From positions 1,293,780 to 1,357,779 of the forward strand of contig NZ_LTBL01000001.1 in assembly GCF_018687785.1 (NCBI RefSeq): DNA of 64,000 nucleotides. The letters run 5' to 3'. The notes below the pieces were generated by a model, which had not been told where the DNA came from, did not search any database, and was given only the letters and a program-made list of their open reading frames with translations. The DNA is from Methanovulcanius yangii (lineage in GTDB: Archaea > Halobacteriota > Methanomicrobia > Methanomicrobiales > Methanomicrobiaceae). The translations under genes and the position numbers were made by a program. This document shows, in pieces, positions 6,278-16,765 of this stretch (position 1 is its first letter; each line of letters opens with the position of its first letter).

Positions 6278-7036
6278 ATGAAAAAGGTCGGACTCCTTGG
6301 GTGTGGCAATGTCGGTCATATCATTGCCGAAAGGTGTGACGGATTCGTCGTAACTGCAGTCTTTGATGTGGATACCAGAAGGGCCGAAGAGGTCGCAAAC
6401 CTCTGTGGTGCGAGAGTATATCCCGACTTTGACAGATTTCTGGAATCCGATGCCGACATCATCGTCGAGGCGGCATCGGTCGCGGCCGTCAGGGAATATG
6501 CACAGACGATCCTCACAAAGGGAAAGGACATCGTAATACTCAGCGTTGGCGCGCTAGCCGATGAAGAACTCAGAAGGGGCATCGAGCAGCTTGCCGCTGC
6601 GACAGACCACAGGGTCTACATTCCATCAGGGGCTATTGTCGGGCTCGACGGACTCAAGACAGGTGAATTTGCAAATATCACCCGTGTCGTTCTGCGGACA
6701 ACCAAGAACCCCGCCTCCCTCGGGATTGCCACAAATGAGAGGATGCTTGTCTTCAAGGGAACCGCAGCGGACTGTATCAGGGAATTCCCGAAAAATATTA
6801 ATGTCGCAGTTGCAATTGAACTTGCATCCGGTGTGAAGGCAGAGGTCGAACTCTGGGCTGATCCCGCAGCAATAAGGAATATTCATGAACTCACATATGA
6901 AGGAGAATTCGGTGAAGTGACGATCACCGTCAGGAACAATCCAAGTCCGGACAATCCTGCAACAAGTTATCTTGCTGCCCTGTCCATCCTCACCCTGCTG
7001 CGCAATCTCGACCGACCGTTACAGATTGGAACCTGA
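6278..7036 (+). CDS. nadX: L-aspartate dehydrogenase (NAD biosynthesis)
   Basis: Oxidises L-aspartate to iminoaspartate with NAD(P), replacing the oxygen-linked NadB oxidase. The 252-residue product has a Rossmann motif (GLLGCGNVGHII, residues 4-15) and the conserved PSGAIVGLDGLK region near 114. It is the first of three genes (nadX, nadA, nadC) with five-base spacing to nadA, so iminoaspartate is passed directly to quinolinate synthase. Use of a dehydrogenase suits a strict anaerobe. Confidence 0.92.
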   Translation: MKKVGLLGCGNVGHIIAERCDGFVVTAVFDVDTRRAEEVANLCGARVYPDFDRFLESDADIIVEAASVAAVREYAQTILTKGKDIVILSVGALADEELRRGIEQLAAATDHRVYIPSGAIVGLDGLKTGEFANITRVVLRTTKNPASLGIATNERMLVFKGTAADCIREFPKNINVAVAIELASGVKAEVELWADPAAIRNIHELTYEGEFGEVTITVRNNPSPDNPATSYLAALSILTLLRNLDRPLQIGT

Positions 7037-7041
7037 AAACC

Positions 7042-7941
7042 ATGAACGAAGAAATCATTCGCGAAATATTGGAACTGAAAAAACGCAGAAATGCCGTGAT
7101 TCTTGCACATAATTATCAGCCCCCGGAAATTCAGGATATCGCCGATATCCTGGGTGACAGTCTCGAGCTTGCGATACGGGCAAAGGAGGCACGGGAAGAT
7201 GTCATCGTGTTCTGTGGCGTTCTCTTCATGGCAGAGACTGCAAAGATCCTCAATCCATCAAAGACCGTTCTGCTTCCGGAAAAGGACGCAGGATGTCCCC
7301 TCGCAGATTTTCTCACACCGGAGATGATCAGGGAGGCACGCAGGGAGCATCCGGGTGCCGCTGTCGTCCTCTATGTAAACTCCACCGCCGCCTCAAAGGC
7401 GGAGGCGGATATCACCTGCACCTCGGCCAATGCGGTGGATGTCGTGCGGTCGCTCGAGGCCGAAACCGTCCTCTTCGGCCCGGATTCGAATCTGGCCGAC
7501 TATGTCCAGTCAAAAATTCCGGAGAAGCAGATCATTCCTCTTCCCCGCGGCGGTCACTGCTATGTGCATCAGCAGTTCACCTGTGACGATGTCATCGAAG
7601 CTGCCGAACGGGGCGATGTGACCATATGTCACCCTGAATGTCCACGTGAGGTGCGCAATGGGTCCGACCTTGTTGCATCGACCGGAGGAATGGTGCGGAT
7701 GGCAGAGAGTGCCCGTACCTGGACACTCCTGACCGAACGCGACATGGCGTACCGCCTGCGCACCCTCTACCCCGACAGGATCTTCCACGTGAAGGAGGGA
7801 GCGGTATGCAGGGATATGAAAAAGATCACCCTTGATTCGGTCCTTCGGTCACTCAGGACCGACACCTATGAGATTGAACTCCCCGATGAAATTATGGAGC
7901 GGGCGAAAGTACCCATCGAACGTATGCTTGCCCTGAGGTAG
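7042..7941 (+). CDS. nadA: quinolinate synthase
   Basis: Condenses iminoaspartate with dihydroxyacetone phosphate to quinolinate; an oxygen-sensitive [4Fe-4S] enzyme. The product has 299 residues. AHNYQPPEIQDIAD near residue 22 is the family signature. Candidate cluster cysteines occur in VFCGVLFMAET, TCTSANAVD and CHPECP. It lies between the aspartate dehydrogenase and nadC genes with gaps of only a few bases. Confidence 0.95.
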   Translation: MNEEIIREILELKKRRNAVILAHNYQPPEIQDIADILGDSLELAIRAKEAREDVIVFCGVLFMAETAKILNPSKTVLLPEKDAGCPLADFLTPEMIREARREHPGAAVVLYVNSTAASKAEADITCTSANAVDVVRSLEAETVLFGPDSNLADYVQSKIPEKQIIPLPRGGHCYVHQQFTCDDVIEAAERGDVTICHPECPREVRNGSDLVASTGGMVRMAESARTWTLLTERDMAYRLRTLYPDRIFHVKEGAVCRDMKKITLDSVLRSLRTDTYEIELPDEIMERAKVPIERMLALR

Positions 7942-7945
7942 AAGG

Positions 7946-8800
7946 ATGACCGAAATAGAACGTCTTCTCCAATTCATTGAAGAAGATTCCCCGTATGGCG
8001 ATATTACATCAGAATCACTGATCCCGCCGGAACGGGAATGCAGTGCACGAATCCTTACCCGGCAGGCGTGTACCATCGCGGGGGTGGAGGAGGCATCGCT
8101 CCTCTTCACGCACTACGGATGCACGGTGCGGCGGAGCGTTCAGGACGGAGACAAACTGTCGTCCGGGGCAACCGTCATCGAGATCTCCGGGAAAACCATT
8201 ACTATTCTCCTGCTGGAACGCCCCGTCCTCAATCTGATGGGACGTATGAGCGGGATCGCCACTGCCACCGCCCGTGCGGCCGGACTGGCACGGGAGGCAA
8301 ATTCCCGTGTCCGGGTCGCAGGAACACGAAAAACCGCTCCAGGACTCAGGTTCTTTGACAAAAAGGCTGTTCGGCTTGGTGGTGGTGACCCGCACCGGTC
8401 CAGCCTCTCCGACCAGATACTCATCAAGGACAATCATCTCGAGATCATTCCCATCGAGGAGGCCGTGGCCCGGGCCCGCGCTGTAACCCGGTACAAAACG
8501 ATCGAAGTGGAGGTCGAAACACCCGAAGAGGCTCTGCGCGGAGCACAGGCAGGAGCGGACATCCTTCTCCTCGACAATATGAAACCGATCACGGTCCAGA
8601 AGACTCTGGACCTTCTCGAGAGCAGGGATGTGCGCAGGAACGTGCTCATCGAGGTGTCCGGGACCATTACCGAAGAAACCCTTGAGGCATATGCAGTTCT
8701 CGATATCGACCTCATCAGTATGGGAAGCCTCACTCACAGTGTCGTCAACACCGACGTCTCCCTCGAGATCCTTCCCGGCATGCAGACCATCCGGTTGTAA
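7946..8800 (+). CDS. nadC: nicotinate-nucleotide diphosphorylase (quinolinate phosphoribosyltransferase)
   Basis: Converts quinolinate and PRPP to nicotinate mononucleotide. The 284-residue product carries GTRKTAPGLRFFDKKAV near 130-146 (quinolinate-binding Arg/Lys), GGGDPHR, ILIKDNH and the C-terminal DIDLISMGSLTHS of the type II PRTase barrel. It is the last gene of the NAD operon; a T-rich stretch follows the stop. Confidence 0.95.
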   Translation: MTEIERLLQFIEEDSPYGDITSESLIPPERECSARILTRQACTIAGVEEASLLFTHYGCTVRRSVQDGDKLSSGATVIEISGKTITILLLERPVLNLMGRMSGIATATARAAGLAREANSRVRVAGTRKTAPGLRFFDKKAVRLGGGDPHRSSLSDQILIKDNHLEIIPIEEAVARARAVTRYKTIEVEVETPEEALRGAQAGADILLLDNMKPITVQKTLDLLESRDVRRNVLIEVSGTITEETLEAYAVLDIDLISMGSLTHSVVNTDVSLEILPGMQTIRL

Positions 8801-9213: not shown

Positions 9214-10236
9214 TCAGCACAGCTTGAAGAGCGGGTGCTCTTCGGTCTGCGGCTGGAGGCCGAATTCTCTTGCTGCCTCGGCGAGTACGATATCGGAGAA
9301 GGCGATTGCAGTCGTTGCTGCTTCACAGTTCTCGATAGGTCCGTACATGATGAGGTCTGCACCAAGGGTTGCTGCCATGATGTTACAGCCGATATCAGGA
9401 GCCGACCATGCAGCCTGCCTGATACCTTCGAAACCGCCAAAGTGGTGGTGGGCCATCTGCTCAAGGAGGATGTCCTTGCCTTCGTACTGCTGGGCAAGAA
9501 CATTTTTCCTCCAGCGCTTCAGCCAGGTCCAGGACACGGTCATGTTGTGGTAGGCACCACCGGTGGGGAGACCGTGGATTGCCTTGCAGGCGAGAATCTC
9601 ACGGAATGAACCGCCGGAACCAAGACCGAGGGGAGTTGCCGCTGTGTCGAGAATGGGGCGGGTGATACCGCACTCTTCTGCGATTGCAAGCATGGACTTT
9701 GCCTGTCCTGCAACGCCACCCTCTGCGAGCACCTTCTCACGGCCGATAACCGAGGCATCGCCAGGGTTGAAGGCGAGGACGATTGCTGCATTGACGTCAC
9801 TGTTCTTCAGTGCCTCAATGTTCTCCGGGAGGATTGAACCATTGATCGAGTTGTAGATTGCACGATCTGCAAGACCAACCTCGGTTACGTACTCACATGC
9901 GTGGGCAAGTGCCCCAGGCATGGATGAGTCCATCAGAAATGCATTCTTGTTGTCAATGGAGTCAAACCATGAGAAGTAGCTCTCAAATGCCTCTCCTGAT
10001 TCAGAGATGATCTGGATGAAGTGTTTGATTCCAGTCTGATCTGAAAGTTCAAGACACCTGTTCCAGAGCGCCTCTGCGCGATCCTTGTCAATTATGCCCT
10101 TCTCATCGTCGATAACAGTCTCGTGCTTGTTATAGAAGATGGAGGCTCCGAGAACCCGCGGGTATTCCCCGGGCTGCCCGCCTATCTTGGTACCGTTAAA
10201 GTCGTGTACCGCCTGCTCTTTTTCAAATTTGAACAT
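9214..10236 (-). CDS. mtrH: tetrahydromethanopterin S-methyltransferase subunit H
   Basis: Peripheral catalytic subunit that transfers the methyl group from methyl-H4MPT to the Co(I) corrinoid on MtrA. The start MFKFEKEQAVHDFNG at 10236 is the family N-terminus and follows GGAGTGACAGGT; a GTG three codons upstream is less likely. The product has 340 residues, somewhat longer than the usual 310-320, with a TIM-barrel fold expected. DSSMPGALAHACEYV and NPGDASVIGREKVL are recognisable family stretches. Last gene of the mtr operon, seven bases after the A-G fusion gene whose corrinoid domain it could also serve. Confidence 0.95.
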   Translation of the reverse strand: MFKFEKEQAVHDFNGTKIGGQPGEYPRVLGASIFYNKHETVIDDEKGIIDKDRAEALWNRCLELSDQTGIKHFIQIISESGEAFESYFSWFDSIDNKNAFLMDSSMPGALAHACEYVTEVGLADRAIYNSINGSILPENIEALKNSDVNAAIVLAFNPGDASVIGREKVLAEGGVAGQAKSMLAIAEECGITRPILDTAATPLGLGSGGSFREILACKAIHGLPTGGAYHNMTVSWTWLKRWRKNVLAQQYEGKDILLEQMAHHHFGGFEGIRQAAWSAPDIGCNIMAATLGADLIMYGPIENCEAATTAIAFSDIVLAEAAREFGLQPQTEEHPLFKLC

Positions 10237-10251
10237 ACCTGTCACTCCTCC

Positions 10252-10992
10252 TCAGATGAATCCGCCTAATTTGGGGAGTAATACCAACAACATCATGAAT
10301 ACGATCAGACCAGCCACAAGGCCATAGAGAATACCGATGTCACGGCCTACCTTGCGTCCGAATCTCTGTGCAAGTTCTGCTTCTGCGAACTCGAGTTTTT
10401 CCTCGATTGCATTGAGTTTTGCCTCAATTTCAAGGAACTGCGGGTTTGCAGTTGCCGATACTGCGCCACCGGCGCCGCCCTCTTCCTCGGACACTTCGAC
10501 AACCATCGGGTCGGCATCAAATGCACCAGGGTCCTTGCCCTCGCACTCTTTGATCTTGCCGGTGATTGCGCCCATGTCCTCGGATTCCATGATATCGATG
10601 ATCTCGACCTGCTGCTGGAACCGCTCGATTGCGGCTGCATCGAGGTTCTCGATGAATGCGATTGCACCCTGTGAACCGACGATCTTTCCGCCTTCGACAC
10701 CATTCTCGTGCAGTGCCTTGAGCGACTGACCGGAAAGGTGACCCTTCACTTCTGTTCCACAGAAGAGGATGAAGCGGATGTTCGGGTTCGATATGGTGTT
10801 TGCAATCAGCTTCTCGAGACCAAGGTTCTCCGTCTTACAGGAACCACAGATTGCGGCGCCTGCATCACAGATACCCTGCTCATCCAGGTGAGACCCGAAG
10901 GTACAGACTGCAACACAGCTCTCTGCGTTTCCGGAGTGATAATCGCCTGCGATAATAGGCCATCCGGATGCCGGAGACTTTTTCGCTGCCAT
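10252..10992 (-). CDS. mtrG: MtrA corrinoid domain fused to MtrG (occupies the mtrG position)
   Basis: Residues 3-178 match the MtrA encoded by 11206-11931 almost exactly, including the candidate cobalt-ligand His85 in EVKGHLSGQ. The C-terminal 68 residues are not the MtrA tail: [17 protein letters not shown] followed by [13 protein letters not shown] and one membrane helix are the MtrG signature. Gene order E-D-C-B-A-F-here-H places it exactly at mtrG. It is therefore not a simple mtrA duplicate but an MtrA(soluble)-MtrG fusion, which would bring an extra corrinoid domain to the Na+-pumping methyltransferase. Two bases separate it from mtrF. Confidence 0.88.
10478..10971 (-). repeat. 494-bp perfect direct repeat, copy 1 (within the A-G fusion gene)
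   Basis: I compared it base by base with 11417-11910 and found no difference. The identity starts and stops sharply: one side breaks in the GGAGG linker codons, the other in the third codon region after the start. Synonymous positions are also identical, so the copies are very recent or kept uniform by gene conversion. Confidence 0.95.
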
Positions 10993-10993
10993 A

Positions 10994-11200
10994 TCAGATA
11001 CCTCCCAGCATCAGGCCCGGAACGAGCACAAGGATGAGTGCAACGATAAGGCCTATTGCAAAGCCCATGACACCGCCCGACTGGATTGCAGACTCAAGCT
11101 TGTTGGTACGGGCGAGAATCTGGCCCTTGTACTTGATGTCCGACATGATCTGGTCGATGGCAGCGGTGCGAATTGGTCCGGATTGATTTCCTTCTGCCAT
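10994..11200 (-). CDS. mtrF: tetrahydromethanopterin S-methyltransferase subunit F
   Basis: Small membrane-anchored subunit of the Mtr complex, 68 residues. An N-terminal cytoplasmic helix ([20 protein letters not shown], about 16-35) is typical of MtrF, and a single C-terminal transmembrane helix ([17 protein letters not shown]) follows. It lies between mtrA and the A-G fusion gene with gaps of five and one bases. Confidence 0.92.
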
Positions 11201-11205
11201 TTACA

Positions 11206-11931
11206 TCACCCTATCAACAGGAATCCAAGCAGGATGAACGAAATGATCAACCCAATCATGATTCCTTCAATTTTTCCTGAATACACACCGGCCGCATAGC
11301 GGTCACGGTATCCCATGCTGGTCACCATCATCTGGATGGTCTTCATCCGGGCATGGATGAGTGCAAGCTCAGCGGTCAGGGGGACTTCCTCGCCCGCACC
11401 TTCTCCACCGGCGCCACCCTCTTCCTCGGACACTTCGACAACCATCGGGTCGGCATCAAATGCACCAGGGTCCTTGCCCTCGCACTCTTTGATCTTGCCG
11501 GTGATTGCGCCCATGTCCTCGGATTCCATGATATCGATGATCTCGACCTGCTGCTGGAACCGCTCGATTGCGGCTGCATCGAGGTTCTCGATGAATGCGA
11601 TTGCACCCTGTGAACCGACGATCTTTCCGCCTTCGACACCATTCTCGTGCAGTGCCTTGAGCGACTGACCGGAAAGGTGACCCTTCACTTCTGTTCCACA
11701 GAAGAGGATGAAGCGGATGTTCGGGTTCGATATGGTGTTTGCAATCAGCTTCTCGAGACCAAGGTTCTCCGTCTTACAGGAACCACAGATTGCGGCGCCT
11801 GCATCACAGATACCCTGCTCATCCAGGTGAGACCCGAAGGTACAGACTGCAACACAGCTCTCTGCGTTTCCGGAGTGATAATCGCCTGCGATAATAGGCC
11901 ATCCGGATGCTGGTGATTTCTTGTTTGCCAT
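11206..11931 (-). CDS. mtrA: tetrahydromethanopterin S-methyltransferase subunit A
   Basis: Corrinoid-carrying subunit that accepts the methyl group from MtrH and passes it to coenzyme M. The 241-residue product has the soluble corrinoid domain (residues 1-178, His85 in KGHLSGQ as probable lower ligand) and the canonical tail: [19 protein letters not shown], then GKIEG and one C-terminal transmembrane helix. This is the authentic MtrA; the near-identical domain at 10252-10992 has a different tail. RBS GGTGGTGAAAG precedes ATG 11931. Confidence 0.95.
11417..11910 (-). repeat. 494-bp perfect direct repeat, copy 2 (within mtrA)
   Basis: Partner of 10478-10971, offset by exactly 939 bases. It covers nearly all of the soluble corrinoid domain of MtrA. 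Confidence 0.95.
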
Positions 11932-11942
11932 CTTTCACCACC

Positions 11943-12227
11943 TCAAATGAACCCAAACGCGATTACTCCCGCGATGAAGAGACCGACTGCAAGGCCATAC
12001 CACATTGCCGTGACACTTCCTGCATAGAGGAGTGATTTCTCACGGTTGGGGAACGACGCCTTGAAGTTGCCTTCACCGGAAAGCATGTTCACAATGTCAT
12101 CTGCAATTTTGTCGAGCTCGTCGACCCGCTCGATAACCGGGCCAAGAGATGCTCCGGCAGTGGTCACAAGACCGACGATGGGGTCAGCGACGAGTCCGAA
12201 CTCAGGCAGTACTTCTACATATCCCAT
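11943..12227 (-). CDS. mtrB: tetrahydromethanopterin S-methyltransferase subunit B
   Basis: Small Mtr subunit, 94 residues. It has a soluble N-terminal part (EFGLVADPIVGLV) and a C-terminal transmembrane helix (SVTAMWYGLAVGLFIAGVIAFG). Position between mtrC and mtrA with short spacers matches the conserved mtr order, and GGAGGTGAGTAAG precedes the start. Confidence 0.92.
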   Translation of the reverse strand: MGYVEVLPEFGLVADPIVGLVTTAGASLGPVIERVDELDKIADDIVNMLSGEGNFKASFPNREKSLLYAGSVTAMWYGLAVGLFIAGVIAFGFI

Positions 12228-12229
12228 TC

Positions 12230-13090
12230 TTACTCACCTCCAACCTCTCGGATCGGCTTGGAGTCAAGCCAGTCAAATGCGTCACGCTTCGAGAGCTTGA
12301 TGTACTCGCTGTAAGACCAGCCCCAGAGAATGACGGAGATCGCAAAGGAAATCACGACTGCAAAGAGGCCAAGGAATGCAACGGACATGATTGCAACTAC
12401 AAGCATGCTCAGGAACCCGCACTCGAGAGCGCACATCTGGGTCCTGTCCCAGGATTCGTTCGGGCCAAGGCAGGCGTTGAACGGGTGCTGGATTGCGATT
12501 GCACCAAGCATGAAGATCGTTGCAAGCACACAGCCTCCGATGACGGACGCCGCGTAGCTGGTGACTTCCATGCCGAGGAACGAGACGGATCCTGCAATCA
12601 GGTCAGTGAAGATAAACGAACCGGAGACCATTGCGGTGAATCCGAGCATCGTCAGGGAACCGACGATGGTCAGCTCGGCAATCATGCGGGTCATGACCGG
12701 GATGTTCATGTTCAGAACCTTGTCTGCAATAAATCCGAGGATTGCTCCGATAATTGCTGCAATGACGACACAGCCGATAGGGACTGCAAGCGGGGAGATT
12801 CCCGCGAGTTTCGTTGCAAAGAGGAACGCGATGACACCGGACCCGAGCGAGATCATACCCGCTGACGGGACACCGGTACCAAGACCATAGCTGCACAGCG
12901 TCTTGATGGAGTCAGTACCCCACCACAGTGCGATGACTGCTGCAAGGCCGCCGAAGAAGGCAAAGACCTCAGTAGACATCAGGCTGTTGAGGTAGACAAT
13001 GTACAGACATACCAGTGCTCCGACAACGCCGATGCCCAGCATTTTGTCATGGGGCATGCCGCCTTCGGATGCTTCAATTTTAACCGACAT
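12230..13090 (-). CDS. mtrC: tetrahydromethanopterin S-methyltransferase subunit C
   Basis: Integral membrane subunit of the sodium-pumping Mtr complex. The 286-residue product is almost entirely hydrophobic, with about seven predicted transmembrane segments; HPFNACLGPNESWDRTQ near 200-216 is a conserved loop. It follows mtrD by eleven bases and precedes mtrB by two. Confidence 0.93.
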   Translation of the reverse strand: MSVKIEASEGGMPHDKMLGIGVVGALVCLYIVYLNSLMSTEVFAFFGGLAAVIALWWGTDSIKTLCSYGLGTGVPSAGMISLGSGVIAFLFATKLAGISPLAVPIGCVVIAAIIGAILGFIADKVLNMNIPVMTRMIAELTIVGSLTMLGFTAMVSGSFIFTDLIAGSVSFLGMEVTSYAASVIGGCVLATIFMLGAIAIQHPFNACLGPNESWDRTQMCALECGFLSMLVVAIMSVAFLGLFAVVISFAISVILWGWSYSEYIKLSKRDAFDWLDSKPIREVGGE

Positions 13091-13101: not shown

Positions 13102-13929
13102 TCAGATAACCACCAGAAGAATTGCAAACAGACCGCAGACTGCGGAAGCTGCACTTGATCCGATAACTGCACGGGGCCAGCGCTTGAACTTCGGGTCGTG
13201 CGGACCTTCGATGGTACCGGTAATGTTGTACGCGGTCAGAACAGCCGCAACGAGGAACATACCGACAGCAAAGATACCGGCGAGAGAGACAGCAAGAATG
13301 CTCATGCCCTCGGTGACACCGAGGAACGAGGGGAGTGCCTCCTCATAGACCTGGAGAAGTTCGTAATAGATGAGCGTACCGCCGAGACCACCGAAGAAAC
13401 CACCGATGACACCTCCGACATAGGAGATGAACGGGAGGCCGTGACCTTCAGTACCCTGTGACTTGTATGCAGGGAAGGTGTCGCCCGTGATCGGGTCCTT
13501 GTCAACCTTACCGGATGCAGCGGGAATACCCATGGCGTAGACGTAGACAACATTCACCATCAGACAGGTGATTGCCATCAGAAGTGCACCGCCGATTGCA
13601 CCTGCGGCAAGAGAGAGAGCGAGACCGAATTCAGCTGCCCATGCGCCTCCGAAGAGACCTGCAAGGCCACCACCGGCTGCAAGCATTGCGACACCGGTTG
13701 CAATACCGGGTGCCTGTCCCATAGCTGCGGGAGCACCACCGACCGGCACGAAGTGCACACCGAATGAGATGAGCACGCCGCCGATGATAACACCGATGAG
13801 CGGAACGAGAGCTGCAGGGTAGGCGACAAAGACGACAGCAACAGCGACAAGGACAATGACAAGCGCGATAAGCGAAGCCGTCGGGTTGATGCCTTCTCCT
13901 CCGGAAGATCCACCACCAAGTGCGCTCAT
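13102..13929 (-). CDS. mtrD: tetrahydromethanopterin S-methyltransferase subunit D
   Basis: Integral membrane subunit of Mtr, 275 residues with about six to seven hydrophobic segments. I placed the start at ATG 13929 (MSALGGGSSGGEG), which overlaps the mtrE stop as ATGA; a longer frame upstream only mirrors mtrE. Motifs such as SFGVHFVPVGGAPAAMGQ and GHGLPFISYVGGVIGG are typical of MtrD. Confidence 0.93.
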   Translation of the reverse strand: MSALGGGSSGGEGINPTASLIALVIVLVAVAVVFVAYPAALVPLIGVIIGGVLISFGVHFVPVGGAPAAMGQAPGIATGVAMLAAGGGLAGLFGGAWAAEFGLALSLAAGAIGGALLMAITCLMVNVVYVYAMGIPAASGKVDKDPITGDTFPAYKSQGTEGHGLPFISYVGGVIGGFFGGLGGTLIYYELLQVYEEALPSFLGVTEGMSILAVSLAGIFAVGMFLVAAVLTAYNITGTIEGPHDPKFKRWPRAVIGSSAASAVCGLFAILLVVI

Positions 13930-14834
13930 GCTGCTGCCTCCTCTTCTGCTGCCTCTTCCGTGTACGGACCGTAGGTCTTGCGTGCCCAGGTCTCTACATA
14001 GCGGTCGATTACCATGAAGACGATAATTACTACAACACCGGCGATAACCGCACCCCATCCAGCCGCAAACGGCTCGAAGAGGATCGTACGCCAGAGTTCA
14101 AAGAATACAATGAGACCGAAACAGATACCCGATGCAGGGCCTGCGCCCTTCGAGGTAAACCACCCGTTGTCAAGGGAGCTCCTCTGACCTGCTTCAGCAT
14201 ACCGGACAATGTCTCCGGATGCAGAAATGGGCAGACCCGCGCCGAAGGCATACTTCTGGTACTGGCGTTCCTTTCCGTAGAACGGATTACCGGTTGCAGA
14301 ACCTGCCGCACCAAGCGCAATACCCCAGACGATACCCATCAGGGGAAGGGGGAACGGGTGTCCAAGTGCTTCAATCATAAGGAAACACATAGTTACGGTC
14401 GCAAAGATGGCCACAAATGCGTGTGCCATAGTCACGGATGTCACCGATTTTAAGATATCGATGTACACCGGCTGTTCAAACTTTGCAAGACTTGCCGTAC
14501 GGCCGAGATATGCAGTTGTGGCGTACACGCCCTGCACAAACACTGCAACCGCCGAACCAATGACGAGAGCAAGAATTGCATTAAACTGAATCGCCATCAG
14601 CGCCCATGCGACGCCGGCAGCCAATGCCACCCAGAGACCATACGCAGGGGGTTCACCGGATACAGCTTTGTTGTATATGCGGTGAACGTATCCCATCTGC
14701 GGAGCAAGCTGAACCTGTGAGTTCGGGTCACCCTGTGATCCGATATCAGATTCAGTATCCTCCGCTGCGCCGGCCACGGTGGCAAGAGCGCCAGCTAAAG
14801 CGCTGATACCGATGCCAAACAGTATTTCTTCCAT
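13926..14834 (-). CDS. mtrE: tetrahydromethanopterin S-methyltransferase subunit E
   Basis: Large integral membrane subunit of Mtr and the first gene of the operon. The product has 302 residues with about six or seven transmembrane segments and the long loop MGYVHRIYNKAVSGEPPAYG near 48-67. The C-terminus ends in an acidic, Ala/Glu-rich tail. GGAGGATGCCTGA precedes ATG 14834; the promoter lies within the next 100 bases. Confidence 0.94.
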   Translation of the reverse strand: MEEILFGIGISALAGALATVAGAAEDTESDIGSQGDPNSQVQLAPQMGYVHRIYNKAVSGEPPAYGLWVALAAGVAWALMAIQFNAILALVIGSAVAVFVQGVYATTAYLGRTASLAKFEQPVYIDILKSVTSVTMAHAFVAIFATVTMCFLMIEALGHPFPLPLMGIVWGIALGAAGSATGNPFYGKERQYQKYAFGAGLPISASGDIVRYAEAGQRSSLDNGWFTSKGAGPASGICFGLIVFFELWRTILFEPFAAGWGAVIAGVVVIIVFMVIDRYVETWARKTYGPYTEEAAEEEAAA

Positions 14835-15058: not shown

Positions 15059-16765
15059 TCAGCGTGCCGGAATGATGAGTGAGCGCTCGCCAGCAGGCTT
15101 GAACTCGCGGATTGCACCCTTTGCGAACTCGCGGCGCGGTTCGGCAAAGTCGAAGGTGAGTGACGGGTCTGCGAAGCAGATCTTCACAAGCGGGTCGAAG
15201 CAGAATGCGTCGTTGCGGCCGTAGTGTGCACCACCGACGATAGCTGCGTATTCTCCCTGGTGACCCACGTTCATGGCGTAGTTCGGGTAGTTCGGTCCAC
15301 GAAGTTCACCCATCAGACCGCGGTCGGGCTCCATGGAGAGAGAGTTTGCGGAACCACACTGGTCCTGCAGGTCGTATCCGAAGAAGCCGAGACGTGACCA
15401 TCCTTCCTTGTGCATGAGCATGGAAAGGTACCATCCGTTCAGACCGGCGTTGGAGTTGCCGGTACCGATGGAACAGGTCAGACCACAGGCTGCTGCCATG
15501 ACACCAGCACGCTGGGAACCTCCGAAGTGGTCCTCCATCATGGTGGGGTACTGTTCGTACTGCTCCATTGCGTTGAGGTTGACCTCGGTTGCAAGGTCGT
15601 TGACAACTTCCTGGGTCGGTGCAACGATCGTGTCGGGGTTCGGGTTCTTGAAGTCGTAGCCGTACTTGTCCTTCAGGTAGTCCATACCGTAGTAGGTGTA
15701 CTCGTCAAGGATGTTGTCGGTGTATGCTGCGGTTGCATACTGGGTAAATCCGACACCACCGGACATGTAGGAACCAAGCCAGATCTGGTCGAAGAGCATG
15801 GTACCTGCACCGACAACCTCAAGGGATGCACGGGCGGGGTCCTTCGGGTACTTGCGGTTTGCCTGGACAATATCGGAGAAGACACCGAACTTGATACCAC
15901 CGGGCTCGTTCGGGCCACGGGCACGGCGAGCGGGCAGGATGGATGCCATCTGCGAGACACCGGCGTGCTTTGCGGCGTAGGAGAGGTCAGCGACTGCTGC
16001 TTCACCGGCGCACATCCTGTATGCTGCGATGAAGGACATACCGATCTGCATTGCAGACCACCTGGAGGTGGTTCCACCATCACACGTGCGTGATACGGTG
16101 GTCGGGATGTGGATTGCCTGGTACATCGACTTGCCGACTTCCTTCTTGAGAACTTCTGCCTGCTCTGCAGGGAAGAGCTTCTCAATGTTGATGAGGAACT
16201 GGGGCTCGATGTCGTCTGCCATGGCGTCGTCGCCGGTGAAGACCTTCACGTAACAGTCATCGACGAGGCCGGGGTGGGTCTCGACCATGTGTTCCTGAAC
16301 CACTGCTGCACCGGGCATTGCGTGGTTGAGGATGTGGAGGTACTCGTTGATGGTCTCGGGGGTAACTTCCTTGCCGAGACGCTTCTGGAGCGTTGCGTGT
16401 GCAAGGTCCATGCCGACAACCACGGTACGGCGGATGTCGTCCCACATCTGCTGCATGGCGGCGTTGTTGACGAAGTGCAGGTCATCACCCTCCACGAAGA
16501 CTCCGGTCTGGGAGACCTCGTAGGTCATGAGCTGTCTCTGACCCATGGGCAGACCGCCAAGGTGGCAGTGCTCGGGGTCGTACATGGAAATTCCACGCTC
16601 CATCTCGATGCCCTTTGCTGCCTTCATGAACTCGCGCTTACGCGGAGACTGCTTGAGGCCGCCAAAGTTGTAGAAGGTGGTCTTTACTGACTCGGGGTCC
16701 TCGCCCTCGAACTTCTCCTTCAGTGCGTTGAGGAAGAGCTTCTGTGATCTCTCAATTTTTCCCAT
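15059..16765 (-). CDS. mcrA: methyl-coenzyme M reductase subunit alpha
   Basis: Catalytic alpha subunit of the F430 enzyme that releases methane from methyl-CoM and coenzyme B. The 568-residue product has the diagnostic [19 protein letters not shown] block (thioglycine and S-methylcysteine sites), [19 protein letters not shown] (methylhistidine and methylarginine sites) and [34 protein letters not shown] precedes ATG 16765. It is the last gene of mcrBDCGA; the presence of mcrC marks isoenzyme I rather than Mrt. Confidence 0.98.

Follow-up and report, generated by a model that had tools for sequence, protein, structure and literature searches.

An MtrA-MtrG fusion in the mtrG slot of a Methanogenium-like mtr operon, a member of mtrA-2b and candidate carrier of a second corrinoid arm

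The window, i.e. the whole stretch of 64,000 nucleotides that was analyzed, contains an operon for Mtr, the energy-conserving Na+ pump of hydrogenotrophic methanogenesis. The operon lies on the minus strand, in the order mtrE, D, C, B, A, F, fusion, mtrH; its genes and features are reported in Table 1. The fusion occupies the mtrG slot, between mtrF and mtrH. The first-pass annotation had placed it at the mtrG locus on the basis of gene order, and the profile search agrees: the genes around it score as MtrE, D, C, B, A, F and H. The mtrD frame, taken at its longest, shares about 130 nt with mtrE; translation probably begins further downstream, at an internal ATG (MSALGGGSSGG), which would give a product of about 275 residues. 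Upstream of the operon lies what we take, by eye, to be the mcr cluster, with mcrA at 15059-16765. On its other side, on the opposite strand, look-alikes of aspartate dehydrogenase, nadA and nadC (6278-8800, +) presumably form a NAD biosynthesis cluster, also named by eye. When the operon was scanned for promoters and terminators with bacterial models, which are ill suited to archaea, only background was obtained.

Table 1. Genes and features of the mtr operon (positions are those of the window)
Feature	Position	Strand	Evidence or remarks
mtrH	9214-10245	-	PF02007; insertion at about residues 248-276 from alignment
mtrA-2b (MtrA-MtrG fusion)	10252-10992	-	Pfam/NCBIfam, AlphaFold, structure matches
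Layout of the fusion product			MtrA corrinoid domain, residues 1 to about 168; Gly/Glu/Ala linker, about 169-183; MtrG stalk/membrane helix, 184-243
Identical tract in the fusion (nt 22-515 of the ORF)	10478-10971	-	DNA comparison
mtrF, flanked by both mtrA-domain genes	10994-11200	-	PF09472
mtrA-1, canonical MtrA with its own stalk helix	11206-11931	-	PF04208; TIGR01111, 337.5 bits
Partner tract in mtrA-1 (nt 22-515 of the ORF)	11417-11910	-	DNA comparison
mtrB	11943-12227	-	PF05440
mtrC	12230-13090	-	PF04211
mtrD	13102-14058	-	PF04207 from ORF residue 84
mtrE	13926-14834	-	PF04206

The fusion frame encodes a product of 246 aa. Pfam assigns residues 4-172 to MtrA (PF04208, E 4e-84) and residues 184-237 to MtrG (PF04210, E 7.4e-23, 80.7 bits against a cut-off of 27); the NCBIfam model for mtrG, TIGR01149, scores 75.6 bits against a cut-off of 50.65. 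Both domains are thus above the curated cut-offs, as anticipated when the frame was first read as an MtrA-MtrG fusion, and the MtrG match of the tail, on which that reading depended, is well above them. The extents then proposed were residues 3-178 for MtrA and the last 68 residues for MtrG; the MtrG part covers about 63 residues (184-246), and is shorter than a full-length MtrG. At the first nine or so positions of the MtrG profile the fusion carries the MtrA linker instead, while the conserved MtrG sequence segment and the stalk/membrane helix are both present. The N-terminus is an MtrA domain devoid of the transmembrane tail found in mtrA itself. It had also been suggested that the gene may pass as a second mtrA: indeed it scores 290 bits with the NCBIfam mtrA equivalog, where the cut-off is 249, and its name in the literature is mtrA-2.

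An AlphaFold model, built from 19 members of the order, features the MtrA alpha/beta fold, a low-confidence linker and a single long helix (184-243). The modelled MtrA domain matches the known structures 5l8x (TM 0.92 by target, rmsd 1.6 A), 5laa and 9qts; by sequence, the solved relatives of the first part of the fusion are MtrA chains, and those of its tail MtrG chains (9qtq_S, 8q3v_G). The frame at 10252-10992 is the mtrA-2b gene of Wang et al. (2015, G3 5:2475; PMC4632066), the MtrA-MtrG fusion found throughout the Methanomicrobiales.

A profile search of the host assembly (2.29 Mb, two contigs, 96% complete) returns a single MtrG match, the fusion, and MtrA is matched twice, by mtrA and by the fusion. 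A separate mtrG, which would contradict the first-pass annotation, was not found anywhere in these 2.29 Mb: as far as the 96% complete assembly tells, the fusion is the mtrG of the organism. The same holds for the order. MtrG matches are present in 54 of the 60 Methanomicrobiales genomes surveyed; in 46 of them the frame is long enough to include an MtrA domain, and the remaining eight are short frames, all cut by a contig end. No free-standing mtrG is present among the 54, including the eight with a frame cut by a contig end, and the fusion, for which a survey of the order had been suggested, is order-wide. Named Methanogenium isolates show the same arrangement (L082, and L083 for the fusion). 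In other families of the phylum, MtrG matches fall in short frames of 67-140 aa.

Several fragmented assemblies break inside the duplicated mtrA domain, at contig ends (G001, G011, G015, G019, G020, G028, G043, G059); an operon broken in this way can seem to lack mtrA or mtrG.

In this genome, mtrA and the fusion are identical, base for base, over the 494 nt from nt 22 to nt 515 of both frames. Seven differences are found within nt 7-21, and the two sequences diverge heavily past about nt 528. Such sharp edges indicate gene conversion between mtrA and the fusion, and the 494-nt tract is presumed to be the latest conversion tract. Over the tract, identity is 100% within the genome, compared to at most 93.3% to any relative. 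Since the closest outside relative, locus L081, is only 93% identical, the last conversion postdates the split from it. The closest named loci, at 90-92% aa identity, are from Methanogenium marinum and M. cariaci, and the host is placed in the Methanomicrobiales.

Two other origins of the identical tracts were considered. The segment of mtrA might have been misplaced before mtrG by the assembly: identical stretches of 494 nt are a classical source of such errors, and several fragmented assemblies break exactly at this point. The genome has no other mtrG, however, and complete single-contig genomes as well as named isolates, from six families, have an uninterrupted fusion frame, with copies which differ from each other. 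With the same arrangement recurring in relatives across the order, misassembly was rejected as practically inconceivable. Alternatively, the identity over 494 nt could reflect a duplication which occurred very recently in this species, rather than the conversion of old paralogues. Yet every informative genome of the order carries the fusion, in the same operon slot and with an orthologous tail; the fusion therefore predates the species, and only its MtrA domain has been copied recently. This origin too was rejected, as highly improbable, the informative genomes of the order being devoid of a free-standing mtrG.

Both copies are readable in 42 genomes, for a total of 84 domains. At the DNA level, MtrA domains from the same genome are on average 95.3% identical, those from different genomes 74.7%, for either gene. 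The opposite is seen in the tails: their similarity is 32% within a genome but 71-73% between orthologues, with 73% between genomes for the fusion tails. In a FastTree phylogeny of the domain, the two copies are sisters in 37 of the 42 genomes. Taken together, these comparisons indicate that gene conversion, recurring between the two nearby genes, keeps the MtrA domains alike; the concerted evolution reported by Wang et al. (2015) is reproduced in this set.

The five cases in which the copies are not sisters are groups of close congeners. In G007 and G012 (L054, L055) the mtrA of one genome groups with that of the other, as do the two fusions, the copies being 85-87% identical at the aa level; in G062 and G072 (L066, L073) the copies again do not pair by genome, and across both pairs identity is 85-89%. 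Judging from these groupings, conversion appears to have paused in both pairs, in G007/G012 since the species split. Such drifted congeneric pairs are natural material for asking whether the two arms specialise.

As to whether the second corrinoid domain works, both copies in this genome carry a histidine, His85, where M. marburgensis MtrA has its cobalt ligand, His84. All 84 domains, the drifted pairs (85-89% aa identity) included, share this residue and a further 67 invariant columns. Copy-specific residues were sought in the same 84 domains: no column separates mtrA from the fusion, and drift is found in the linker only. The second domain seems therefore to be under the same constraint as MtrA, and both copies look like active methyl carriers. 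Two interchangeable methyl carriers are expected to leave such a pattern, which falls short of proof for the loading or use of a cobamide. Neither expression, cobalt content or stoichiometry data for the Mtr of Methanomicrobiales, nor usable proteomics or stoichiometry of the fusion, were found in the literature searched.

The same observations may be read differently. An ancient fusion may be impossible to lose because MtrG is essential, and its MtrA domain, although redundant, may be passively kept by conversion from mtrA-1. Conversion is frequent, the copies appear interchangeable and no residue specific for either of them has been fixed in the domain; that gene conversion could preserve an unused domain weakens the argument from conservation for most genomes, though less for those with diverged copies. 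The diverged pairs, however, retain all 68 invariant positions. In addition, all genomes seen have kept the domain, though deletions leaving MtrG only should be possible, and the separate rise of MtrA-MtrF fusions in Methanococcales and Methanocella points to an advantage. Passive maintenance of a redundant domain is thus considered unlikely, and a working second domain is preferred.

A place for a working second domain is offered by the known Mtr structures. By cryo-EM, the central stalk is trimeric, and each protomer adds to it one long helix from each of MtrA, B, F and G; MtrG forms a three-helix bundle inside the membrane (PMC10998594, PMC12774963). The N-termini of the stalk helices are located at the cytoplasmic tip, from which the corrinoid domain of MtrA hangs by a flexible Glu/Gly linker (PMC10998594, PMC12774963). 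In the proposed architecture, the C-terminal helix of the fusion would fill the place of MtrG in the MtrABFG stalk. Its N-terminal domain would be a second working corrinoid domain, attached by a flexible linker to the cytoplasmic tip of the stalk, beside the MtrA arm: a corrinoid domain and a similar linker, standing in place of the MtrG N-terminus, would generate a second arm at the same spot. Each protomer would then feature two tethered corrinoid arms, and the trimer six. In M. mazei each protomer binds one MtrH dimer, whose two active sites point in opposite directions; the authors regard the distal site as sterically hard to reach for a single arm, which in that organism is on MtrA and not on MtrG (PMC12774963). 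Two arms per protomer would match the two MtrH sites, and the second active site might be used in this way; both domains would be loaded with cobamide, each of them serving one of the MtrH sites.

Since each protomer receives one stalk helix from MtrA and one from MtrG, the two-arm mechanism is favoured. Two corrinoid sites per protomer, as put forward in the first-pass annotation, are a reasonable proposal, in agreement with the MtrA/MtrG stoichiometry seen by cryo-EM in other methanogens and with the conserved His. To the whole explanation, in which the fusion acts as the sole MtrG of the stalk and carries a second working corrinoid arm, homogenised by gene conversion, we assign a probability of about 80%.

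MtrH itself features, in all Methanomicrobiales aligned, an insertion of about 25-30 residues (RKNVLAQQYEGKDILLEQMAHHHFGG), at about residues 248-276. It comes after a conserved W-x-W-L-K segment, and is absent or much shorter in the other Halobacteriota families checked, including those bearing MtrA-MtrF. In M. mazei MtrH, Arg239, Lys242 and Lys243 form a basic patch at the active-site exit (PMC12774963); by eye, the insertion follows the equivalent stretch. A general correlation between MtrA fusions and the insertion was considered: the MtrA-MtrF bearers compared, two Methanocellales-like genomes, do not have the insertion. Accordingly, no general link is shown, and the correlation amounts to one clade. 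On a wider reading, the insertion specific to the order would be a co-adaptation to the second arm; this is possible, but rather doubtful.

Contrary to what the first-pass annotation had implied, the fusion is not new: Wang et al. reported the gene, its spread across the order and its gene conversion in 2015 (PMC4632066), and the gene described here is one more member of the known mtrA-2b. The order of the domains, the operon slot between mtrF and mtrH, the host order and the homogenised MtrA domain are all the same; nothing essential differs, the species being another, Methanogenium-like one. Wang et al. analyzed eight Methanomicrobiales, with no mention of Methanogenium or of stoichiometry (PMC4632066); the larger set used here adds the congeneric pairs in which the copies do not group by genome. 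Two later cryo-EM papers (PMC10998594, PMC12774963) mention neither the fusion nor the Methanomicrobiales.

A parallel case is mtrA-2a, an MtrA-MtrF fusion of separate origin, described in Methanococcales and Methanocella arvoryzae (PMC4632066). As in mtrA-2b, a normal mtrA is accompanied by a second, homogenised MtrA domain carried on a stalk subunit with a single helix; the partner, however, is MtrF and not MtrG. An MtrA-MtrF fusion next to a normal mtrA is also present in two Methanocellales-like genomes of family f14 (G085, L170; G103, L172), while a third member, G094 (L171), has one mtrA only, with F and G as separate genes, making the fusion patchy within the family. A whole order has doubled the number of methyl-carrier domains that it encodes, by fusing one to a stalk subunit; other lineages have done so through another stalk subunit.

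Canonical Mtr, as solved for M. marburgensis (8q3v, PMC10998594) and M. mazei (9qtq, 9qts, PMC12774963), is one-armed, and the availability of these structures makes the role of the second arm directly testable. The eight subunit families are the same, and MtrA is alike in its corrinoid domain, linker and stalk helix. The canonical complex differs in that each protomer has a single corrinoid arm and MtrG is a free protein of 72-86 residues, where the Methanomicrobiales encode the fusion.
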